DNA of 64,000 nucleotides from Bacilli bacterium (GTDB lineage Bacteria; Bacillota_I; Bacilli_A; RF39; UBA660). Below, piece by piece: positions 10,205-59,175 of this stretch. Position numbers and translations under genes: made by a program. The notes under the pieces are model-generated. The model was given only the letters and a program-made list of their open reading frames with translations. It did no database searches and was not told where the DNA came from. How positions within the stretch are numbered: position 1 is the first letter of the stretch; the number at the start of each line of letters is the position of its first letter. The DNA lies in assembly GCA_028693035.1 (NCBI GenBank), contig JAQUWE010000006.1, forward strand, positions 1-64,000, given 5' to 3'.

Positions 10205-11254
10205 ATGTTTTATAAGAAAGAGAAAGGATTTACATTAATAGAACTTTTAGCAGTCATAGTCATATTAGCAGTCATAGCTTTAATAGCAACACCTATTATA
10301 GTAGGTGTCATTAATAAATCTAAAAAGAATGCATTTATGGATACCGCATATGGGGTGGTAGAAGCAGGGAATCTTTATTATGCCAAAAATTTTGGTAACG
10401 ATACTTTTGCTGGAAAAGTGTTTACATTCCCAAATGATGCTGAAGATTTAAAATTATCAGGAGAAAAACCTGGTGGTGGCTCTTTAGAAGTGACCACCAA
10501 TGGGAAACCAATTCTAGCTATTTATGATAAAGAAAAAAAATGGTGTGCTACTAAACGTGAAGATAATTCTAAAATTGTAATAAACAAATACGAAGAGGGC
10601 AAATGTAAAGCAGAATCGGCGGCAGAAGGATTTCTTCCTTCAGGGTTGACCAAGGGAACTGCTGTGTATCTAAATCCCGAAACAAAAAGTATATGCCAAG
10701 CAGCAGAATCCATAAGTACGACAGGGACAAAAGCAGGATGCATGAAATGGTATGTATATAAAGATAATGGAAATGGAACTTACCAGTTAATAGTAGACCA
10801 TAATACAACGGCAAAAGTTGTTTGGAATACAAGTGGAAGTACTACGGGAGGAATGAAAGAAGCTACGGTAGCGCTTACAAATGATACAAAAACATGGGAT
10901 ACTTCTTTAAAAGCCAGACTTATTACAGCAAATGAAATAGCTGAAATTACGGGTAATACAACATTTAATGAAACAACAGCAACTGGAGCTAGTCGCTTTT
11001 ATTTCGACAGCAATACCCAAACTAAAACAGCTACAAGTCAAGGAGAAAGTCATTATGCATGGCTATATGATTATACAAGAGATTGTACGAGTTCTGGTTG
11101 TAATATAGCAGACAATACGACGTATGGCTACTGGACAGCTACTTCTGTATTTAATGATTCTTATACCGTTTGGTACGTAAGCAACATTGGGAACATGGGT
11201 TTTAATAATGCAGAACACACTCTCAATGGTATTCGCCCTGTTATAACCGTATAA
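10205..11254 (+). CDS. Prepilin-like protein (type IV pilin N-terminal methylation motif) with C-terminal lectin-fold-like end (GIRPVITV)
   Basis: KGFTLIELLAVIVILAVIALIATPII; one of four paralogues in the window. Confidence 0.85.
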   Translation: MFYKKEKGFTLIELLAVIVILAVIALIATPIIVGVINKSKKNAFMDTAYGVVEAGNLYYAKNFGNDTFAGKVFTFPNDAEDLKLSGEKPGGGSLEVTTNGKPILAIYDKEKKWCATKREDNSKIVINKYEEGKCKAESAAEGFLPSGLTKGTAVYLNPETKSICQAAESISTTGTKAGCMKWYVYKDNGNGTYQLIVDHNTTAKVVWNTSGSTTGGMKEATVALTNDTKTWDTSLKARLITANEIAEITGNTTFNETTATGASRFYFDSNTQTKTATSQGESHYAWLYDYTRDCTSSGCNIADNTTYGYWTATSVFNDSYTVWYVSNIGNMGFNNAEHTLNGIRPVITV

Positions 11255-16597: not shown

Positions 16598-16963
16598 TTA
16601 TTGATCCACTACCATAGAACAAGAAGCTTCTAAACCATTTTTTTTTAGATAATCTTCTCCCCATGCATACATAGTTGTTAAAATGGGTTTAATACTTTTT
16701 CCAAATTCAGACAAATAATATTCCACTTTAGGAGGAACCACAGGGTATACAGTACGAATGATTAAATTGTCTTTTTCTAATTCCCTTAATTGCTGCGTCA
16801 GCATTTTAGGAGTTGCATTAGGAATTAATTTTTTAAGTTCACCAAATCGTAAGGTACGATCCACTAAATGCCATAAAATTAAAGACTTGTATTTTCCACC
16901 AATTAAATCAAGTGTAATATCAACAGGACAAATAACAGAATTATTAGAATTGCAGCACCCCAT
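16598..16963 (-). CDS. HxlR-family transcriptional regulator with Cys-rich N-terminus
   Basis: CPVDITLDLIGGKYKSLILWHL...LRFGELKKLIP.ATPKMLTQQLRELE. Confidence 0.92.
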   Translation of the reverse strand: MGCCNSNNSVICPVDITLDLIGGKYKSLILWHLVDRTLRFGELKKLIPNATPKMLTQQLRELEKDNLIIRTVYPVVPPKVEYYLSEFGKSIKPILTTMYAWGEDYLKKNGLEASCSMVVDQ

Positions 16964-52704: not shown

Positions 52705-52729
52705 TGATACAATAATTTGGGTGATGTAC

Positions 52730-53272
52730 ATGAAAATCATAAGTGGAAAATATAAAGGTAGAAAAATAGAAGGATTTGACATGGTAGGAACAAGACCTAC
52801 AATGGATCGCGTGAAAGAGTCCTTATTTGCCATGATTGGTCCAGAAGTAAGGGATAGTACTGTATTAGACTTATTTGGTGGCACAGGTTCTCTTGGACTA
52901 GAAGCTATCAGCAATGGTGCCAAAAGCTGTACTTTCGTCGATGTCAATCCAAAGGCTATCAAAACAATGAAAGAAACGGTTTCTAAAGTAGGGGTTACAG
53001 AACCAATAACCTATCTTTGCAAAGACTATAAAAAAGCATTAGAATCTTTTATAAGACAAGGTATACAGTTTGATCTTATTTTCTTAGATCCACCATACCA
53101 TCTTTGTATTATAGGTGCTATTTTAAAAATAATAAAAGAAGGCAATCTTTTAAAAGAAAATGGTATGATTGTTTGTGAATTTGAAGAAGAAAAACTAGAA
53201 TCAAATTCATTTACTCTTTATAAAGAAAGAACCTATGGTTCTAAAAATATTAAAATCTATAAGGAAAATTAA
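52730..53272 (+). CDS. rsmD: 16S rRNA (guanine966-N2)-methyltransferase
   Basis: MKIISGKYKGRKI, TRPTMDRVKESLF, VLDLFGGTGSLGLEA, FLDPPYH. Confidence 0.94.
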   Translation: MKIISGKYKGRKIEGFDMVGTRPTMDRVKESLFAMIGPEVRDSTVLDLFGGTGSLGLEAISNGAKSCTFVDVNPKAIKTMKETVSKVGVTEPITYLCKDYKKALESFIRQGIQFDLIFLDPPYHLCIIGAILKIIKEGNLLKENGMIVCEFEEEKLESNSFTLYKERTYGSKNIKIYKEN

Positions 53273-53343
53273 TTCCTTTTTTTTATGCCTTGCAAGGACT
53301 TTGTCACTTTCTTAAAATATATTGCAAGTAAGGAGGTGATAAA

Positions 53344-55458
53344 ATAAAGTATCCGTTTGTTAAACAAATAGGTTTGCAAGATTGTGCTTCTGCATCTTTA
53401 CTTATGGTTGTAAGATATTATAAAGGAAATATCTCTTTAGATATTCTTTCTGAACTTTGTAAAATCACAAGAAATGGAACCAGCGCTTTTCATATTATAG
53501 AAGCGGCTAAGAAGCTAGGAATAGAAGCAAAAGGAATGCACTGCGACATGGAAACACTCCTTCATACAAAAGTGAAACTCCCCTTGATTGCACATGTTAC
53601 TATGCATGGTACTTATCAGCATTTTGTTGTTATTTATGAAATTAATTATTTAAAAGAATATCTTTTGATTGCAGATCCAGCTGATAAAATAAAAAAAATA
53701 AAATGGAGTAAGTTTTCTCTCATTTATAATGAAACCATTGTCTTATTTACACCAAAAGAACTTGTTTCCTTTGCATCGACCTCTTTTATTGAAGTTATTA
53801 AAGGATGCATTATAAAATATAGAAATGATTTTTATCCTTTTCTTATTTATTCTTTTTTATATACTTTTCTTGCTATTTGTACAGCTTTTTATATAAATAT
53901 TTTCACATCTGCATTACAAGAGGGAGTAGACAAAAACTATATCTTATTTATTTCCATTTTATTTTTATTTTTTCATATTTTCAAAAATATATTTAATAGT
54001 TGCAGAAAAAAGATCTTAATTTATTTAAATCAGAAGATAGATTTTGTAATCACAACGGAGACTTTTTATTCTATTTTATCACTTCCTTATTCCTATTTTT
54101 TCAATCATAAGATAGGAGAAATCGCACTTCGTATGGGAGAAGTGGAACAAGTAAAAAATGTCATAGGACAAGTTTTTCTCTTTCTTTTTATTGATTTCTT
54201 TTTGATGGTAGCTTCTTTTCTTTTCCTTTATAAAATTCATTTTATATTGTCCATACTGGCTTTCCTTTTTCTAGTACTTGCTTTTGTCTTTTCTTATATC
54301 TATTCTAAAATTCTATATTCTGCTTCTAAAATTTTACAAGAGAAGAAAGCAAAAGAAACGACTGTCATGATAGAATCTTTGGTTGGGTATGAAACAGTAG
54401 GGGCTCTTAGTTTACAAAGAAAAAGAGCACTTCTTTATGCCAAAGAGCATATAAAAACTTTAGAAATTCAAAAGAAATTAAGTACCCTTATTACCCATAT
54501 TCATTTTATAAAAGAAATGCTTGGAAGCATAAGTACTTTATCCCTTTTTACAGTGGGTGCATTTCTGGTACTAGAAGAGAAAATAACCTTAGGAAATCTT
54601 TTAACCGCTTCTTTTCTTCTTACTTATTTTTTAGAGCCAGCATGGAACTTTTTAACAAGTCTTTCTTCTTATGAAGAAGCAAAAGTAGCTTTTGAAAATA
54701 TAAGCAATCTTTTTATGAAAAAAAAGGAAAAAGGTTTTCTGCACAATCAAATTAAGGGAGATATTTGTATTCAGAAATTGCATTATACCTATGATGAGCA
54801 AAACTATATATTTAAAGATTTATCTCTTGTTATAAACAAAGGTACCAAAGCAATGTTATTAGGGAAAAGTGGGGTAGGAAAAAGTACTCTTTTAAAATTG
54901 ATAAAGGGATATTACGAAGTAGAAGGCAGTCGCTTGTTTTTAGATAAAGCCGATATCCATTTATATAGTAGCGAAGCTATAAATCGTGATATTGGTTATA
55001 TTTCACAAAAAGAAGTCTTGTTTACCGATACTTTATATCATAATATTACGCTTTATAGAGAAGTGAAAGAAGAACATATATTAAGTGTTATTAAAATATG
55101 TGAGCTAGAACCATTACTAAAAAGATCTACGCTTGGTATCCATATGCAGATTGAAGAAGGAAGTACCAGTATATCTGGAGGGGAAAAGCAAAGAATTATT
55201 TTAGCGCGTTTTTTATTATCAAAATTTCAAATATATTTAATTGATGAAGGAACTAACCAAATGGATTTAGGATTGGAAAGAAAAATTTTAAAAAATATGT
55301 TTAAAGCCTTTCCGGGAAAAACTGTTTTATTTGTGTCACATAGAGTCGATAATTTAGATTTATTTGACGAGGTGATCCGTTTTGAGGAAGGGTATAAGGT
55401 TACACAAATCAGAAAAAATGATAAGGGAAAATATGTATACAAAAGTAACAATTTTTGA
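53344..55458 (+). CDS. Peptidase-containing ABC exporter (C39 peptidase, bacteriocin/RiPP PCAT type), inferred AUA start
   Basis: C39 Cys QDCASASLLM, His GTYQHFVVI, Asp ADPADK; TM domain; Walker A LGKSGVGKST, SISGGEKQRIILARFLL; AGGAGG SD 7-8 nt before ATA 53344. Confidence 0.9.
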   Translation: MKYPFVKQIGLQDCASASLLMVVRYYKGNISLDILSELCKITRNGTSAFHIIEAAKKLGIEAKGMHCDMETLLHTKVKLPLIAHVTMHGTYQHFVVIYEINYLKEYLLIADPADKIKKIKWSKFSLIYNETIVLFTPKELVSFASTSFIEVIKGCIIKYRNDFYPFLIYSFLYTFLAICTAFYINIFTSALQEGVDKNYILFISILFLFFHIFKNIFNSCRKKILIYLNQKIDFVITTETFYSILSLPYSYFFNHKIGEIALRMGEVEQVKNVIGQVFLFLFIDFFLMVASFLFLYKIHFILSILAFLFLVLAFVFSYIYSKILYSASKILQEKKAKETTVMIESLVGYETVGALSLQRKRALLYAKEHIKTLEIQKKLSTLITHIHFIKEMLGSISTLSLFTVGAFLVLEEKITLGNLLTASFLLTYFLEPAWNFLTSLSSYEEAKVAFENISNLFMKKKEKGFLHNQIKGDICIQKLHYTYDEQNYIFKDLSLVINKGTKAMLLGKSGVGKSTLLKLIKGYYEVEGSRLFLDKADIHLYSSEAINRDIGYISQKEVLFTDTLYHNITLYREVKEEHILSVIKICELEPLLKRSTLGIHMQIEEGSTSISGGEKQRIILARFLLSKFQIYLIDEGTNQMDLGLERKILKNMFKAFPGKTVLFVSHRVDNLDLFDEVIRFEEGYKVTQIRKNDKGKYVYKSNNF

Positions 55459-55846
55459 TGAAATAACAGAAGTACCCCATTATAGAAACTATGGTCTTTG
55501 CTTTCTTGTTTTTTGTATTCTTTTGCTACTGTTTTGTTTATACCCTTATACAAAACAAGAAACCTTTGTCGCAAAATTAGAAAAGCAACATTTTTTAATG
55601 GTTGTGATTCCCACGAAAAAGATTTCTTTGATTGATAAAAACAAATTTTATTATGCAAATAAAGTATATGGATTTAAAGTGGAAAGTATGGAAATGAGTG
55701 GGGATCAAAATAGTATTGTTCTCGTATTATATCTTAATAAAAAGATAGAGAGTAAACAAAATATTATTTGGATTGCCTTTGATAAAAAAAGGACAACAAT
55801 TATGGAGGAATTAATAAAAAAGGGAAAGAGAGGTTTTTCAATATGA
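55433..55846 (+). CDS. Short bitopic membrane protein, putative exporter accessory
   Basis: Single TM then extracytoplasmic domain; overlaps PCAT end and GG-peptide start (ATGA). Confidence 0.7.
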   Translation: MYTKVTIFDEITEVPHYRNYGLCFLVFCILLLLFCLYPYTKQETFVAKLEKQHFLMVVIPTKKISLIDKNKFYYANKVYGFKVESMEMSGDQNSIVLVLYLNKKIESKQNIIWIAFDKKRTTIMEELIKKGKRGFSI

Positions 55847-55983
55847 AAGAATTAAGTAAACAGGAACTGTTAAAAACAGAAGGGGGTTCTTTATCTGTAG
55901 GTGCTATTTTAGCAATCACAGGGGGGGTTATATTTTTGATAGGCGTTATTGATGGCTATACAAGGCCCTTAAAATGCAATTAG
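55843..55983 (+). CDS. Double-glycine leader peptide (bacteriocin-like precursor 1)
   Basis: MKELSKQELLKTEGG/SLSVGAILAITGGVIFLIGVIDGYTRPLKCN; ATGA-coupled to exporter operon; absent from the ORF track. Confidence 0.85.
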   Translation: MKELSKQELLKTEGGSLSVGAILAITGGVIFLIGVIDGYTRPLKCN

Positions 55984-56000
55984 GGTTGTGATGTAATATA
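55943..56000 (+). repeat. Direct repeat copy A (GG-peptide 3' end plus downstream promoter-like tail)
   Basis: 58 nt ending ...TACAAGGCCCTTAAAATGCAATTAGGGTTGTGATGTAATATA. Confidence 0.9.
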
Positions 56001-56017
56001 TTTGAGGTGAAAATATC

Positions 56018-56521
56018 ATGATTGAATATTTAGATTTAGTAGATGAACAAGATAACGTAATTGGAAGTGAAGATAGAAATATCATATATAAAAAAGGACT
56101 AAAAAATTACAGAACAGTTAACATTTTAATAATTAACGATGAAAATAAAGTCTTAGTTCAAAAAAGGACTGCTGATAGAAGAGTTTTCCCTAATAGATAT
56201 GATTTTTCAGCAGCTGGTCATTTAGATGTGGGTGAAGATTATAATACAGCTGCTTATAGAGAGTTAAAAGAAGAATTGGGAATAGAAACATCACTAGACG
56301 AATTGATGTATTTTAATCCTAACAAACACAATGTTAATTCTTTTAAAAAGTTATTTATTGGAAAATGGAATGGAGAATTTAGGTATGATGAATCTGCTGT
56401 TAAAGGAATAGAGTTTTTAACAAAAGATGAAATATTAAATTTAATGAAAAATAACAATGAGCTTTTTGTTCCAGATTATTATTTTGTTTTCAAATATATT
56501 AACGATTATAATTTAATATGA
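56018..56521 (+). CDS. Nudix hydrolase (IPP-isomerase-like subgroup)
   Basis: GHLDVGEDYNTAAYRELKEELGI Nudix box. Confidence 0.88.
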   Translation: MIEYLDLVDEQDNVIGSEDRNIIYKKGLKNYRTVNILIINDENKVLVQKRTADRRVFPNRYDFSAAGHLDVGEDYNTAAYRELKEELGIETSLDELMYFNPNKHNVNSFKKLFIGKWNGEFRYDESAVKGIEFLTKDEILNLMKNNNELFVPDYYFVFKYINDYNLI

Positions 56522-56545
56522 TATAAATTATTTTATATAATGATT

Positions 56546-56603
56546 GTGGTATAGATGTCTATACAAGACCTTTAAAATGTAATTAGGGTTGTGATATAAT
56601 ATA
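56546..56603 (+). repeat. Direct repeat copy B
   Basis: 50/58 identical to copy A by eye, no gaps; still encodes GIDVYTRPLKCN-stop. Confidence 0.9.
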
Positions 56604-56622
56604 ATTATTAGTAGGAAATAGT

Positions 56623-57138
56623 ATGATTTTAAAAAATATGGCTGGTATTTACATTTTAGATGGTGATAAAATTTTGTTATTAAAGAGGAGTAAAACTGAA
56701 TCTTTAAATGAATATTATAGCATTGGTGGAAGATTTGAACCAGATGAGTTAAATAATCCATTTAGATGTGTTATGAGGGAATTAGAGGAAGAAAGTGGCC
56801 TTTTGGAATCTCATTTGACTGATATAAAGTTAAAATATGTTTCTTTTAGAAATTATGGCAATTATATTACGCAAAATTATCTTTTCTTTGCAAAATTAAA
56901 AGATAAAGATATTATTTTAAAAGATTGTGATGAAGGAACTTTTGAATGGGTAAATATTGAAGATTTATTTTCTAAGAAAATGCCACCAACATCATTTGCT
57001 TGTCTTAAACATTATTTTAGTAACGAAGAAAAAAATGATAGCATCCTTATGGCGGCAGCAACAAATAATAATGGTTATGGCGAATACATTTTTACAGAAT
57101 TAGTATCGTTCGATAATTTTAATTTTGATAAAGAGTGA
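56623..57138 (+). CDS. Nudix hydrolase family protein
   Basis: GGRFEPDELNNPFRCVMRELEEESGL (Nudix box with irregular spacing). Confidence 0.8.
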   Translation: MILKNMAGIYILDGDKILLLKRSKTESLNEYYSIGGRFEPDELNNPFRCVMRELEEESGLLESHLTDIKLKYVSFRNYGNYITQNYLFFAKLKDKDIILKDCDEGTFEWVNIEDLFSKKMPPTSFACLKHYFSNEEKNDSILMAAATNNNGYGEYIFTELVSFDNFNFDKE

Positions 57139-57172
57139 TATCTTAAATATTTATTATGATCACTGTATTTTA

Positions 57173-57221
57173 GATTGATATACAGGCTTTTAAAATGCAA
57201 TTAGGACTACAGTATACTATA
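57173..57221 (+). repeat. Direct repeat copy C (diverged)
   Basis: GATTGATATACAGGCTTTTAAAATGCAATTAGGACTACAGTATACTATA aligns with A/B. Confidence 0.7.
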
Positions 57222-57268
57222 AATATAGTAGTAAAATCTTGGATTGATTTAAGAGAAGGAAAATTATA

Positions 57269-57703
57269 ATGATAACGTTAAATAAAAAAATAAAAGAAGT
57301 GAATTCAGAGAGAAGAGCGTGCTATGCAATATTAGAAACTTCTGATGAAAAAATTGCAGTAGTAAGACATACTGATTGGGGATTGATTTTTTTAGGTGGT
57401 AAAAAAGAAAAAAATGAAATTGCTGAAGAAACCATTAAAAGAGAAGTGCAAGAGGAAATCGGCTATAGTGTAGATTCCTTAGAATTTTATGAAACTATAG
57501 AAACTTACTACGATATTGTTTCAAAAGGAAAAAAATTATATTGTCATAATATTGCTGATATATATACTGGAAAAATTAAGGACAAAGTTCAAGAACCTAT
57601 AGAACCAGATACAACATTAGAAATGTATTATCCGAACGAATTATTTGGCAAAATGAAACTTGAGTTTCAAAATGTTATATTAGAAAAACTTTATAAAAAA
57701 TAA
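57269..57703 (+). CDS. Nudix hydrolase family protein
   Basis: GGKKEKNEIAEETIKREVQEEIGY Nudix box. Confidence 0.88.
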   Translation: MITLNKKIKEVNSERRACYAILETSDEKIAVVRHTDWGLIFLGGKKEKNEIAEETIKREVQEEIGYSVDSLEFYETIETYYDIVSKGKKLYCHNIADIYTGKIKDKVQEPIEPDTTLEMYYPNELFGKMKLEFQNVILEKLYKK

Positions 57704-57765
57704 TAATTTATATAAAACAAATGAAAAGTGTATGTGATTTTTCATACGACTAAAAGGAGGAATGC

Positions 57766-57933
57766 ATGCAAGTATTAAATAAAGAAGAACTATTAGAAAT
57801 AAAAGGTGGTGCCATTACAGGCACTTACATAAATGCAGTTGTAAAAGGAATAGAAGCACTATTAGAGGTTGGCAGAAGTTTAGGCACAGCCGTAAGAAGA
57901 TGGGTAGAAGGAAGTATATGTGGTCCTTTATAA
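57766..57933 (+). CDS. Double-glycine leader peptide (bacteriocin-like precursor 2)
   Basis: MQVLNKEELLEIKGG/AITGTYINAVVKGIEALLEVGRSLGTAVRRWVEGSICGPL; SD AAGGAGG; not in the ORF track. Confidence 0.85.
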   Translation: MQVLNKEELLEIKGGAITGTYINAVVKGIEALLEVGRSLGTAVRRWVEGSICGPL

Positions 57934-58073
57934 AAAAAAGTAAAAAATATAAACTCATTTTAGGCATTTTACTTTTTCCATTTTTAATGATTTTACTAAC
58001 CATTTGTACCCATATTTTGCTAGATGCAGGTATTTTATTAGGTAGTTTTATTAGAAAAAGTATTTCAATGTAA
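57918..58073 (+). CDS. Small hydrophobic protein, putative immunity protein or second peptide
   Basis: MWSFIKKSKKYKLILGILLFPFLMILLTICTHILLDAGILLGSFIRKSISM, overlapping the GG-peptide 2 end. Confidence 0.65.
   Translation: MWSFIKKSKKYKLILGILLFPFLMILLTICTHILLDAGILLGSFIRKSISM
57973..58070 (+). repeat. Direct repeat copy 1 flanking GNAT gene (inside small ORF)
   Basis: TTTTTCCATTTTTAATGATTTTACTAACC...TTAGAAAAAGTATTTCAAT. Confidence 0.95.
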
Positions 58074-58137
58074 AAGAAAAAAATATAGTTTAGTTCGTAA
58101 AATGACAATTTCAATTATAGAAATAAGGGTGAAACCA

Positions 58138-58761
58138 ATGAATTTGATTAATATAAAATCGGTAGAATCAAAAGAAAAATTAAGAGAAATTTTCACTTTT
58201 TTATCAAAAAGCTTCTACGAAGATGCCCTTTCACACAAAGAACACTATTTTATTATGTCCGAACGATATGAAGAAATGAAAGAACAATATAAAAAGGATA
58301 AAGAACTAATAATTTACATAGAAGAAGCTGGAAATATAGTAGGTGCATTAACATCTAAAAATATGGATTTAAAATCTAAAAAAATAACGCTAGGTGTTAT
58401 GGTAGTTGCTGAATCGCACAGAAAAAGAGGGTACGCAAGGTCACTAATACAAGAGTTTGAAAAAGCATGTAAGGAAAAAGGAATTGCACATATTGATTTA
58501 GGTGCTAGATTTAGAGCCTGTCCTTTTTATATCAATCAAGGTTATAAGCCTAAATTGATGGTGCAAGTATTTGATTTTGCTGGAATAGAAGATATAAAAA
58601 AAGCAAATATAGAACATTTAGAAATAGAAAAGGAATACCAAGGGGAAACCTATGGATTTATTATTTTTAATATTGATGGTGTAGACAAAGGAAAAATAAA
58701 CTATTTTGAAAGAAATGTTCCTACCGCACAAGCACAATATGTCTTTGAAAAAGATTTATAA
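58138..58761 (+). CDS. GNAT family N-acetyltransferase
   Basis: VMVVAESHRKRGYARSLIQEFEKACKEKGI (acetyl-CoA loop R-x-x-G-x-A), FYINQGYKPK. Confidence 0.87.
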   Translation: MNLINIKSVESKEKLREIFTFLSKSFYEDALSHKEHYFIMSERYEEMKEQYKKDKELIIYIEEAGNIVGALTSKNMDLKSKKITLGVMVVAESHRKRGYARSLIQEFEKACKEKGIAHIDLGARFRACPFYINQGYKPKLMVQVFDFAGIEDIKKANIEHLEIEKEYQGETYGFIIFNIDGVDKGKINYFERNVPTAQAQYVFEKDL

Positions 58762-58762
58762 T

Positions 58763-58860
58763 TTTTTCCGTTTTTAATGATTTTACTAACCATTTGTACC
58801 CATATTTTGCTAGATGCAGGTATTTTATTAGGTAGTTTTATTAGAAAAAAGTATTTCAAT
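58763..58860 (+). repeat. Direct repeat copy 2 flanking GNAT gene
   Basis: About 97 nt, differs from copy 1 by one substitution and a 1-nt A insertion; starts right after the GNAT stop codon. Confidence 0.95.
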
Positions 58861-58974
58861 TTAAGAAAAAAGCCTGTAAAATGGCTTTTTTTCATGTAAA
58901 ATACTCAAAAAAACCGTTGCCACCTGTATAAAAAAGTGTTATAATACTTTTAGTCAAAAAAAAGGGGGTGTATT

Positions 58975-59175
58975 ATGAGTAAAGTAGTTGTCAGAAATGG
59001 TAATGTAGATGGTGCACTCCGTACTTTTAAACAAAGAAATCTAAAAGATGGTTCTTATAAAAAATTAAGAAGTAGACAAGATGGTTATATGAAACCTGGA
59101 GAAAAAAGAAGAGCGGCTAAAAAAGAAGGTATCAAAAATAGCCACAGACGTGAAAAATTATCAAGAGCCGTATAA
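58975..59175 (+). CDS. rpsU: 30S ribosomal protein S21
   Basis: VRNGNVDGALRTFKQRN...RRAAKKEGIKNSHRRE. Confidence 0.9.
   Translation: MSKVVVRNGNVDGALRTFKQRNLKDGSYKKLRSRQDGYMKPGEKRRAAKKEGIKNSHRREKLSRAV

Follow-up and report, generated by a model that had tools for sequence, protein, structure and literature searches.

An export operon with two leader peptides

The locus was found in an AT-rich genome (assembly G000) of 1.36 Mb, which is distributed over 36 contigs. A 64-kb stretch of it, called the window here, contains an operon for peptide export, the usual gene order of which is rsmD, C39 peptidase-ABC exporter, accessory protein, GG-leader peptide 1 (P1), GG-leader peptide 2 (P2), a small membrane protein (TM) and rpsU. 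In the present genome this order is interrupted twice (Table 1): three Nudix genes (N1, N2 and N3) lie between P1 and P2, and a gene for a GNAT acetyltransferase lies between TM and rpsU.

Table 1. Features of the export operon, its flanks and its inserts (positions within the window)
Feature	Position	Strand	Remarks
rsmD-like methyltransferase, conserved left flank	52721..53272	+	53-61% identity in L024, L025, L026
C39 peptidase-ABC peptide exporter	53341..55458	+	PF03412, PF00664, PF00005
Accessory membrane protein, weakly MAG1140-like	55436..55846	+	NF045999 (Mycoplasma model), E 0.0013, below cut-off
P1, GG-leader peptide 1, intact	55843..55983	+	homologues in 352/386 family genomes
Repeat A	55943..56000	+	P1 3' end, stop and 17 nt; 50/58 to B
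N1, inserted Nudix (YfcD / DR0079 / IPP-isomerase-like)	56018..56521	+	PF00293; PDB hits 1q27, 2fkb
Repeat B	56546..56603	+	P1 tail copy; score 44, null 10.3 +/- 1.5
N2, inserted Nudix	56623..57138	+	PF00293; nine, not seven, residues between E and REUxEE in Nudix box
Repeat C	57173..57221	+	diverged P1 tail copy, 1-nt deletion relative to A; score 23
N3, inserted Nudix (YtkD/MutT-like)	57269..57703	+	PF00293; TIGR02705 below cut-off
P2, GG-leader peptide 2, parted from P1 by inserts	57766..57933	+	homologues in 355/386 family genomes
TM, small membrane protein, intact copy, start uncertain	57900..58073	+	several relatives have homologues downstream of P2
TM 3' end, first copy	57973..58080	+	104/109 to second copy
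Inserted GNAT acetyltransferase	58135..58761	+	PF00583
TM 3' end, second copy, frameshifted	58763..58871	+	runs on into terminator-like hairpin and rpsU promoter region
rpsU, conserved right flank	58975..59175	+	71-77% identity in L024, L029

The exporter also matches the NCBIfam models TIGR01193 and NF045998 (Mbov_0121, a Mycoplasma model), both below cut-off, and in most relatives an ORF occupies a similar place to that of the accessory protein. Together with the C39 exporter, the two GG-leader peptides (window 53341-58073) make up a near-universal syntenic system of the family. The leader regions of P1 and P2 are near-copies of each other in two relatives, clearly so at the DNA level in L087 (439-653) and in the protein leaders in L094 (480-781), suggesting that leaders may recombine or may have arisen by duplication.

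P1 and P2 are, as a rule, tightly packed. Among the 111 genomes in which both peptides are listed on the same contig, the gap between them measures -7 to 28 nt in 107 and 94 nt in one; the remaining three have long gaps of 713, 1221 and 1785 nt. The junction holds a methyltransferase in L068, an amidase-domain protein in L066 and the three Nudix genes in the present genome. The comparison is one between species, each being represented by one assembly. Since P1 and P2 are adjacent in 107 of 111 genomes, and intact and adjacent in three congeners (G003-G005), the Nudix genes are to be regarded as inserts into a tight pair. The assembly has a listed contamination of 6%, but on either side the inserts are framed by conserved synteny.

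Copies of the P1 tail and their Nudix cargo

The first-pass annotation had described a 58-nt repeat that covers the 3' end of P1, recurs ahead of N2 and, diverged, ahead of N3. This description holds. Repeats A and B are identical in 50 of 58 positions without a gap, while the next-best place for A within the window reaches 31/58 and the best one in the 1.04-Mb remainder of the genome, both strands considered, 34/58. Repeat C scores 23 in local alignment with A, a value that was reached by none of 500 shuffles (10.1 +/- 1.4). As had also been claimed, B still codes for the end of the peptide, GIDVYTRPLKCN-stop, and the codon changes between A and B (AGG/AGA, CCC/CCT, TGC/TGT) are synonymous; the sites are too few to gauge a synonymous bias. 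The proposed units of one Nudix ORF plus one repeat follow each other at distances of 603 and 618 bp, but no repeat stands behind the last gene, N3, the score between N3 and P2 being at null.

The repeat had further been suspected to supply a promoter. Motifs of this kind do exist: B contains TTTAAA-18-TATAAT with TG, C contains TTTAAA-18-TATACT, both being matches to the consensus, and the bases common to A, B and C take in the -35-like block. Such motifs are no evidence of promoter function, because they are frequent in shuffled sequences as well; 34 promoter-like sites were found in the region against 23.6 +/- 5.5 expected. That a promoter in the P1 tail was copied before each gene so as to express it, and that the copies have nothing to do with gene capture, would agree with the motifs and the common block. 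The excess over the shuffles is, however, modest, and the tail copies of TM and of two further genes described below, an SDR and an ATPase gene, are gene ends and terminators instead of promoters. We consider promoter duplication quite improbable.

The three Nudix proteins are indeed not close copies of each other, as the first-pass annotation had stated. Their pairwise identity amounts to 21-28%, and a tree with 21 further Nudix proteins places them apart from one another (three label changes), although its support is so low that one common origin would still be compatible with it. N1 is far closer to IDI/YfcD-type genes of other genomes than to N2 or N3. Close relatives of the cargo are scarce. 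For N1, the scan of GTDB contigs yielded four distant matches, at most 35% identical, and the protein search of phages another four distant ones. The other 242 family genomes contain no N2 homologue at E<=1e-20, nor did the protein search of phages and viral contigs find one; a single distant match came from plasmids. N3 yielded two partial matches in viral contigs. In PADLOC, the sole match was a generic Nudix-like candidate model.

An alternative to the gain of foreign genes is tandem duplication of a unit consisting of P1 tail and Nudix gene, followed by extreme divergence of the latter. The all-Nudix cargo speaks for it, as does a colinear alignment of B with C, which extends over about 98 columns and thereby past the P1 tail, although its outer parts alone are not significant; part of the intergenic unit itself could have been copied. 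The tails of A and B, however, are 86% identical, whereas the adjacent proteins share 21-28%; the three proteins stand at different places in the tree, albeit with low support, and N1 has the affinity to IDI/YfcD-type genes that was mentioned above. Tandem duplication thus appears very unlikely, and the identities and the tree bear out the earlier view of heterologous genes. Admittedly, an all-Nudix cargo is not predicted by random capture of genes. The high Nudix count of this genome, 20 matches versus 1-7 in five congeners, accounts for it in part. Several of the 20 lie next to one another in pairs.

The same anatomy at rpsU and at other loci

A second insert of comparable build is found a few genes downstream. 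The GNAT gene is missing at this place in L024 and L026, and the congeners G003 and G004 are without it. A second copy of the TM tail (109 nt, 95% identical) begins two bases past the GNAT stop codon, and the TM gene, which is intact, leads into the insert. The second copy has a frameshift and passes without a break into the hairpin and the rpsU promoter region, so that it resembles an original end that was displaced. Over the whole window, comparable direct repeats within 4 kb are confined to the tails of P1 and TM.

The TM|rpsU junction holds varied extra genes in L064, L065, L067, L079, L084, L091, L093 and L097. Varied genes being found there in many relatives, the end of the operon is to be considered a hotspot of insertion. 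Tail copies are not a constant companion of such genes. Seven other genomes that have genes between P2/TM and rpsU give scores at or near null, with weak matches in L091/L093 and L067, and L068 and L066, in which P1|P2 is likewise occupied, have no tail copy there. The latter implies that duplication of the tail is not obligatory, or that it decays.

A survey for single genes flanked by a copy of their upstream neighbour's end covered 1.10 Mb of the present genome, to which 0.84 Mb from the rest of the family were added. After filtering, two further cases were left. In the first (L167, on contig G000:C18), a gene of 283 amino acids lies between a short-chain dehydrogenase (SDR) and ecfA and is bounded by copies of the post-SDR region including its terminator, 124 of 137 positions being identical; in the congener G005, SDR and ecfA are separated by a short gap without this gene. 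In the second (L205, genome G222 of another genus), a gene of 346 amino acids and an ORF of 44 amino acids follow an ATPase gene, the 3' end and terminator of which are repeated exactly (70/70) behind the inserted ORFs. The lengths of the tail copies thus vary (39-58, 70, 109 and 137 nt), and so do their sequences. The counts are too small for a comparison of rates between genomes.

The remaining matches of the survey (L101, L102, L107, L154, L155, L162, L166, L169, L181, L183, L223, L227 and L230) were rejected as paralogues, as coding repeats in tandem, as a mobile-element region or as a CRISPR array; some of these rejections rest only on both copies falling in neighbouring ORFs. Several of the regions may be mentioned in their own right. 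L183 (11550-16840) is a mobile-element region with a recombinase-like ORF at 16816. A GNAT gene in this region has a small TnpW-like gene on either side, whole in one case and truncated in the other. L169 (G000:C22, 1611-6360) holds a CRISPR-like array with the repeat GTTTTAGTACTCTGTTAAATTGAGTTGTTCTAAAAG beside an ORF of 1045 amino acids, a length that fits Cas9. Collagen-like proteins with GPTGPTGP repeats are encoded in L230 (16983-19629) and L155 (5270-6133), those of L230 by two tandem genes with common 5' regions. Pilin-like genes, found in the window at 10205, 25416, 30134 and 47096 and at about a dozen other places of G000, share a 5' end of 330-380 nt with 73-81% DNA identity, while their C-terminal parts differ.

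The variety of the tail copies bears on another alternative, an integron-like or Xer-like cassette array, in which a recombinase inserts circular one-gene units at a fixed site in the 3' end of P1. The regular array of ORF plus repeat, with its spacing of about 0.6 kb, would fit, and the genome encodes four tyrosine recombinases (PF00589). All four, however, lie on other contigs, and two of them are XerC/XerD-like as judged from their length. The first-pass annotation had proposed to look for a linked recombinase and to search the genome for the repeat consensus: no recombinase was recognised among the window ORFs of at least 120 aa, and the repeat is confined to the P1 locus, with no copy in the genome beyond A, B and C. 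Nor do the repeats fold significantly (z-scores of -0.25, -1.83 and -0.04 for A, B and C) or match Rfam. Like attC arrays of integrons, the P1 array has one-gene units with a repeat at the genes' 3' side. Unlike these, it has no integrase nearby, no attC-like fold and no repeat behind its last gene, and its repeat is the coding tail of a host gene that is not common to the insertion sites. The pdif modules of Acinetobacter plasmids are likewise small gene units flanked by short repeats. A pdif site, however, is a constant Xer site, whereas each insertion site here has a repeat of its own. Because the tail copies share neither sequence nor length from case to case, a single recombination site cannot explain the cases, and a cassette mechanism is highly improbable. 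Transposition does not offer itself either: the inserts contain no transposase, and the repeats vary in length, unlike the constant target duplication of insertion sequences and transposons.

Proposed additive recombination at gene 3' ends

What the analysis shows, and what has to be explained, is the P1 array, the copies of gene tails, the heterologous cargo, the sites that are empty in relatives and the cases at other loci. Four features would agree with an incoming piece that brings the upstream gene's 3' end along: the upstream gene is whole, the cargo lies behind it, the rear copy is partial and, wherever the downstream context tells, it is the rear copy that borders on the former flank. 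Since the copies differ (A/B 50/58, TM 104/109), a misassembly in which the same sequence was passed twice is unlikely.

In our opinion, it is rather likely that foreign single genes were added at P1|P2 and TM|rpsU by additive recombination in the 3' end of the upstream gene, probably following uptake of DNA. DNA uptake, the order of events, the donor and, from the anatomy of the loci, the pathway of recombination are what we infer. The incoming piece would carry a copy of the upstream gene's 3' end, followed by the cargo gene. Homologous recombination in that 3' end would join the piece to the chromosome, and its other end would be joined, via short homology or none, at a point of this gene that lies upstream of the crossover. 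The product would be a whole upstream gene, then the cargo, then the old 3' end as a remnant. A single event of this kind at TM would yield TM-GNAT-tail-rpsU. Repeated events at P1 would yield P1-N1-tail-N2-tail-N3-P2, with C as the oldest and most decayed remnant and B as the youngest; the P1 array is read most simply as a serial accumulation. Selection for an intact operon would retain the additive products only.

Ordinary DNA recombination, resembling that of minimal mobile elements, is what we would favour over integron-like capture, because the tail copies differ. Of the earlier proposal of serial capture at a fixed junction, the heterologous genes are borne out, and the junction is occupied by independent single-gene inserts in L068 and L066, while the fixed cassette site is not supported. 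A gene for ComEC (PF03772) on contig G000:C17 makes uptake possible; alone it is no proof of transformability. As candidate microhomology at the non-homologous end, a T-run, an A-run and GG were read by eye at three junctions, features that are often expected by chance in AT-rich DNA. A donor carrying tail plus cargo did not show up in protein searches of phages, plasmids, viral contigs and GTDB contigs, nor did DNA searches of phages and plasmids yield one, and the tail/cargo pattern was absent from the viral contigs.

The donor could also have been a circle instead of a linear piece with a homologous end and an illegitimate one; a single Campbell-type crossover in the 3' end would lead to the same product. 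As judged from the anatomy, a circle would give a whole gene, the cargo and a partial tail of any length; either donor would therefore comply with what is seen. No circular donor is known, however, and tails of 39-58 nt are short for a homologous crossover in most bacteria, which makes the circle an unlikely variant. It is also conceivable, yet hardly probable, that the family has a dedicated mobilisation of single genes, in which the unit would carry the 3' end of its target, often together with the terminator, insert behind it and rebuild that end, leaving the old one as a scar, with varying target sequences and no self-encoded recombinase.

Additive recombination as proposed here has relatives among known systems. 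In homology-facilitated illegitimate recombination, foreign DNA is added via one homologous and one illegitimate junction, the same pair of junctions that is inferred from the anatomy at P1 and TM. In Streptococcus pneumoniae, transformation with a fragment comprising a chromosomally repeated segment and a non-repeated flank leads to chromosomal duplication (PMC3784515). The pneumococcal tandem duplications, however, measure about 100-900 kb and are flanked by IS repeats, whereas here copies of 39-137 nt enclose a foreign gene. A further relative is the minimal mobile element described by Saunders and Snyder in Neisseria: two conserved genes between which single genes differ from genome to genome, with no apparent mechanism of transfer but homologous recombination (definition quoted in PMC8627216). 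Compared at the species level, P1|P2 similarly holds three Nudix genes, a methyltransferase, an amidase or nothing, and no transposase or integrase is linked to it among the window ORFs of at least 120 aa. Minimal mobile elements, however, usually exchange their content, whereas the inserts at P1 would have been added serially, leaving copies of the upstream 3' end.

Gains of single genes are very common in bacteria, but one can rarely see how a lone gene enters without a transposase of its own. Additive recombination has a simple signature, the displaced 3' tail behind a new gene, which can be searched for in any genome, and the decay of the scar could date the addition. As for the family itself, the P1|P2 locus reveals that a near-universal two-peptide export operon tolerates genes between its peptides.
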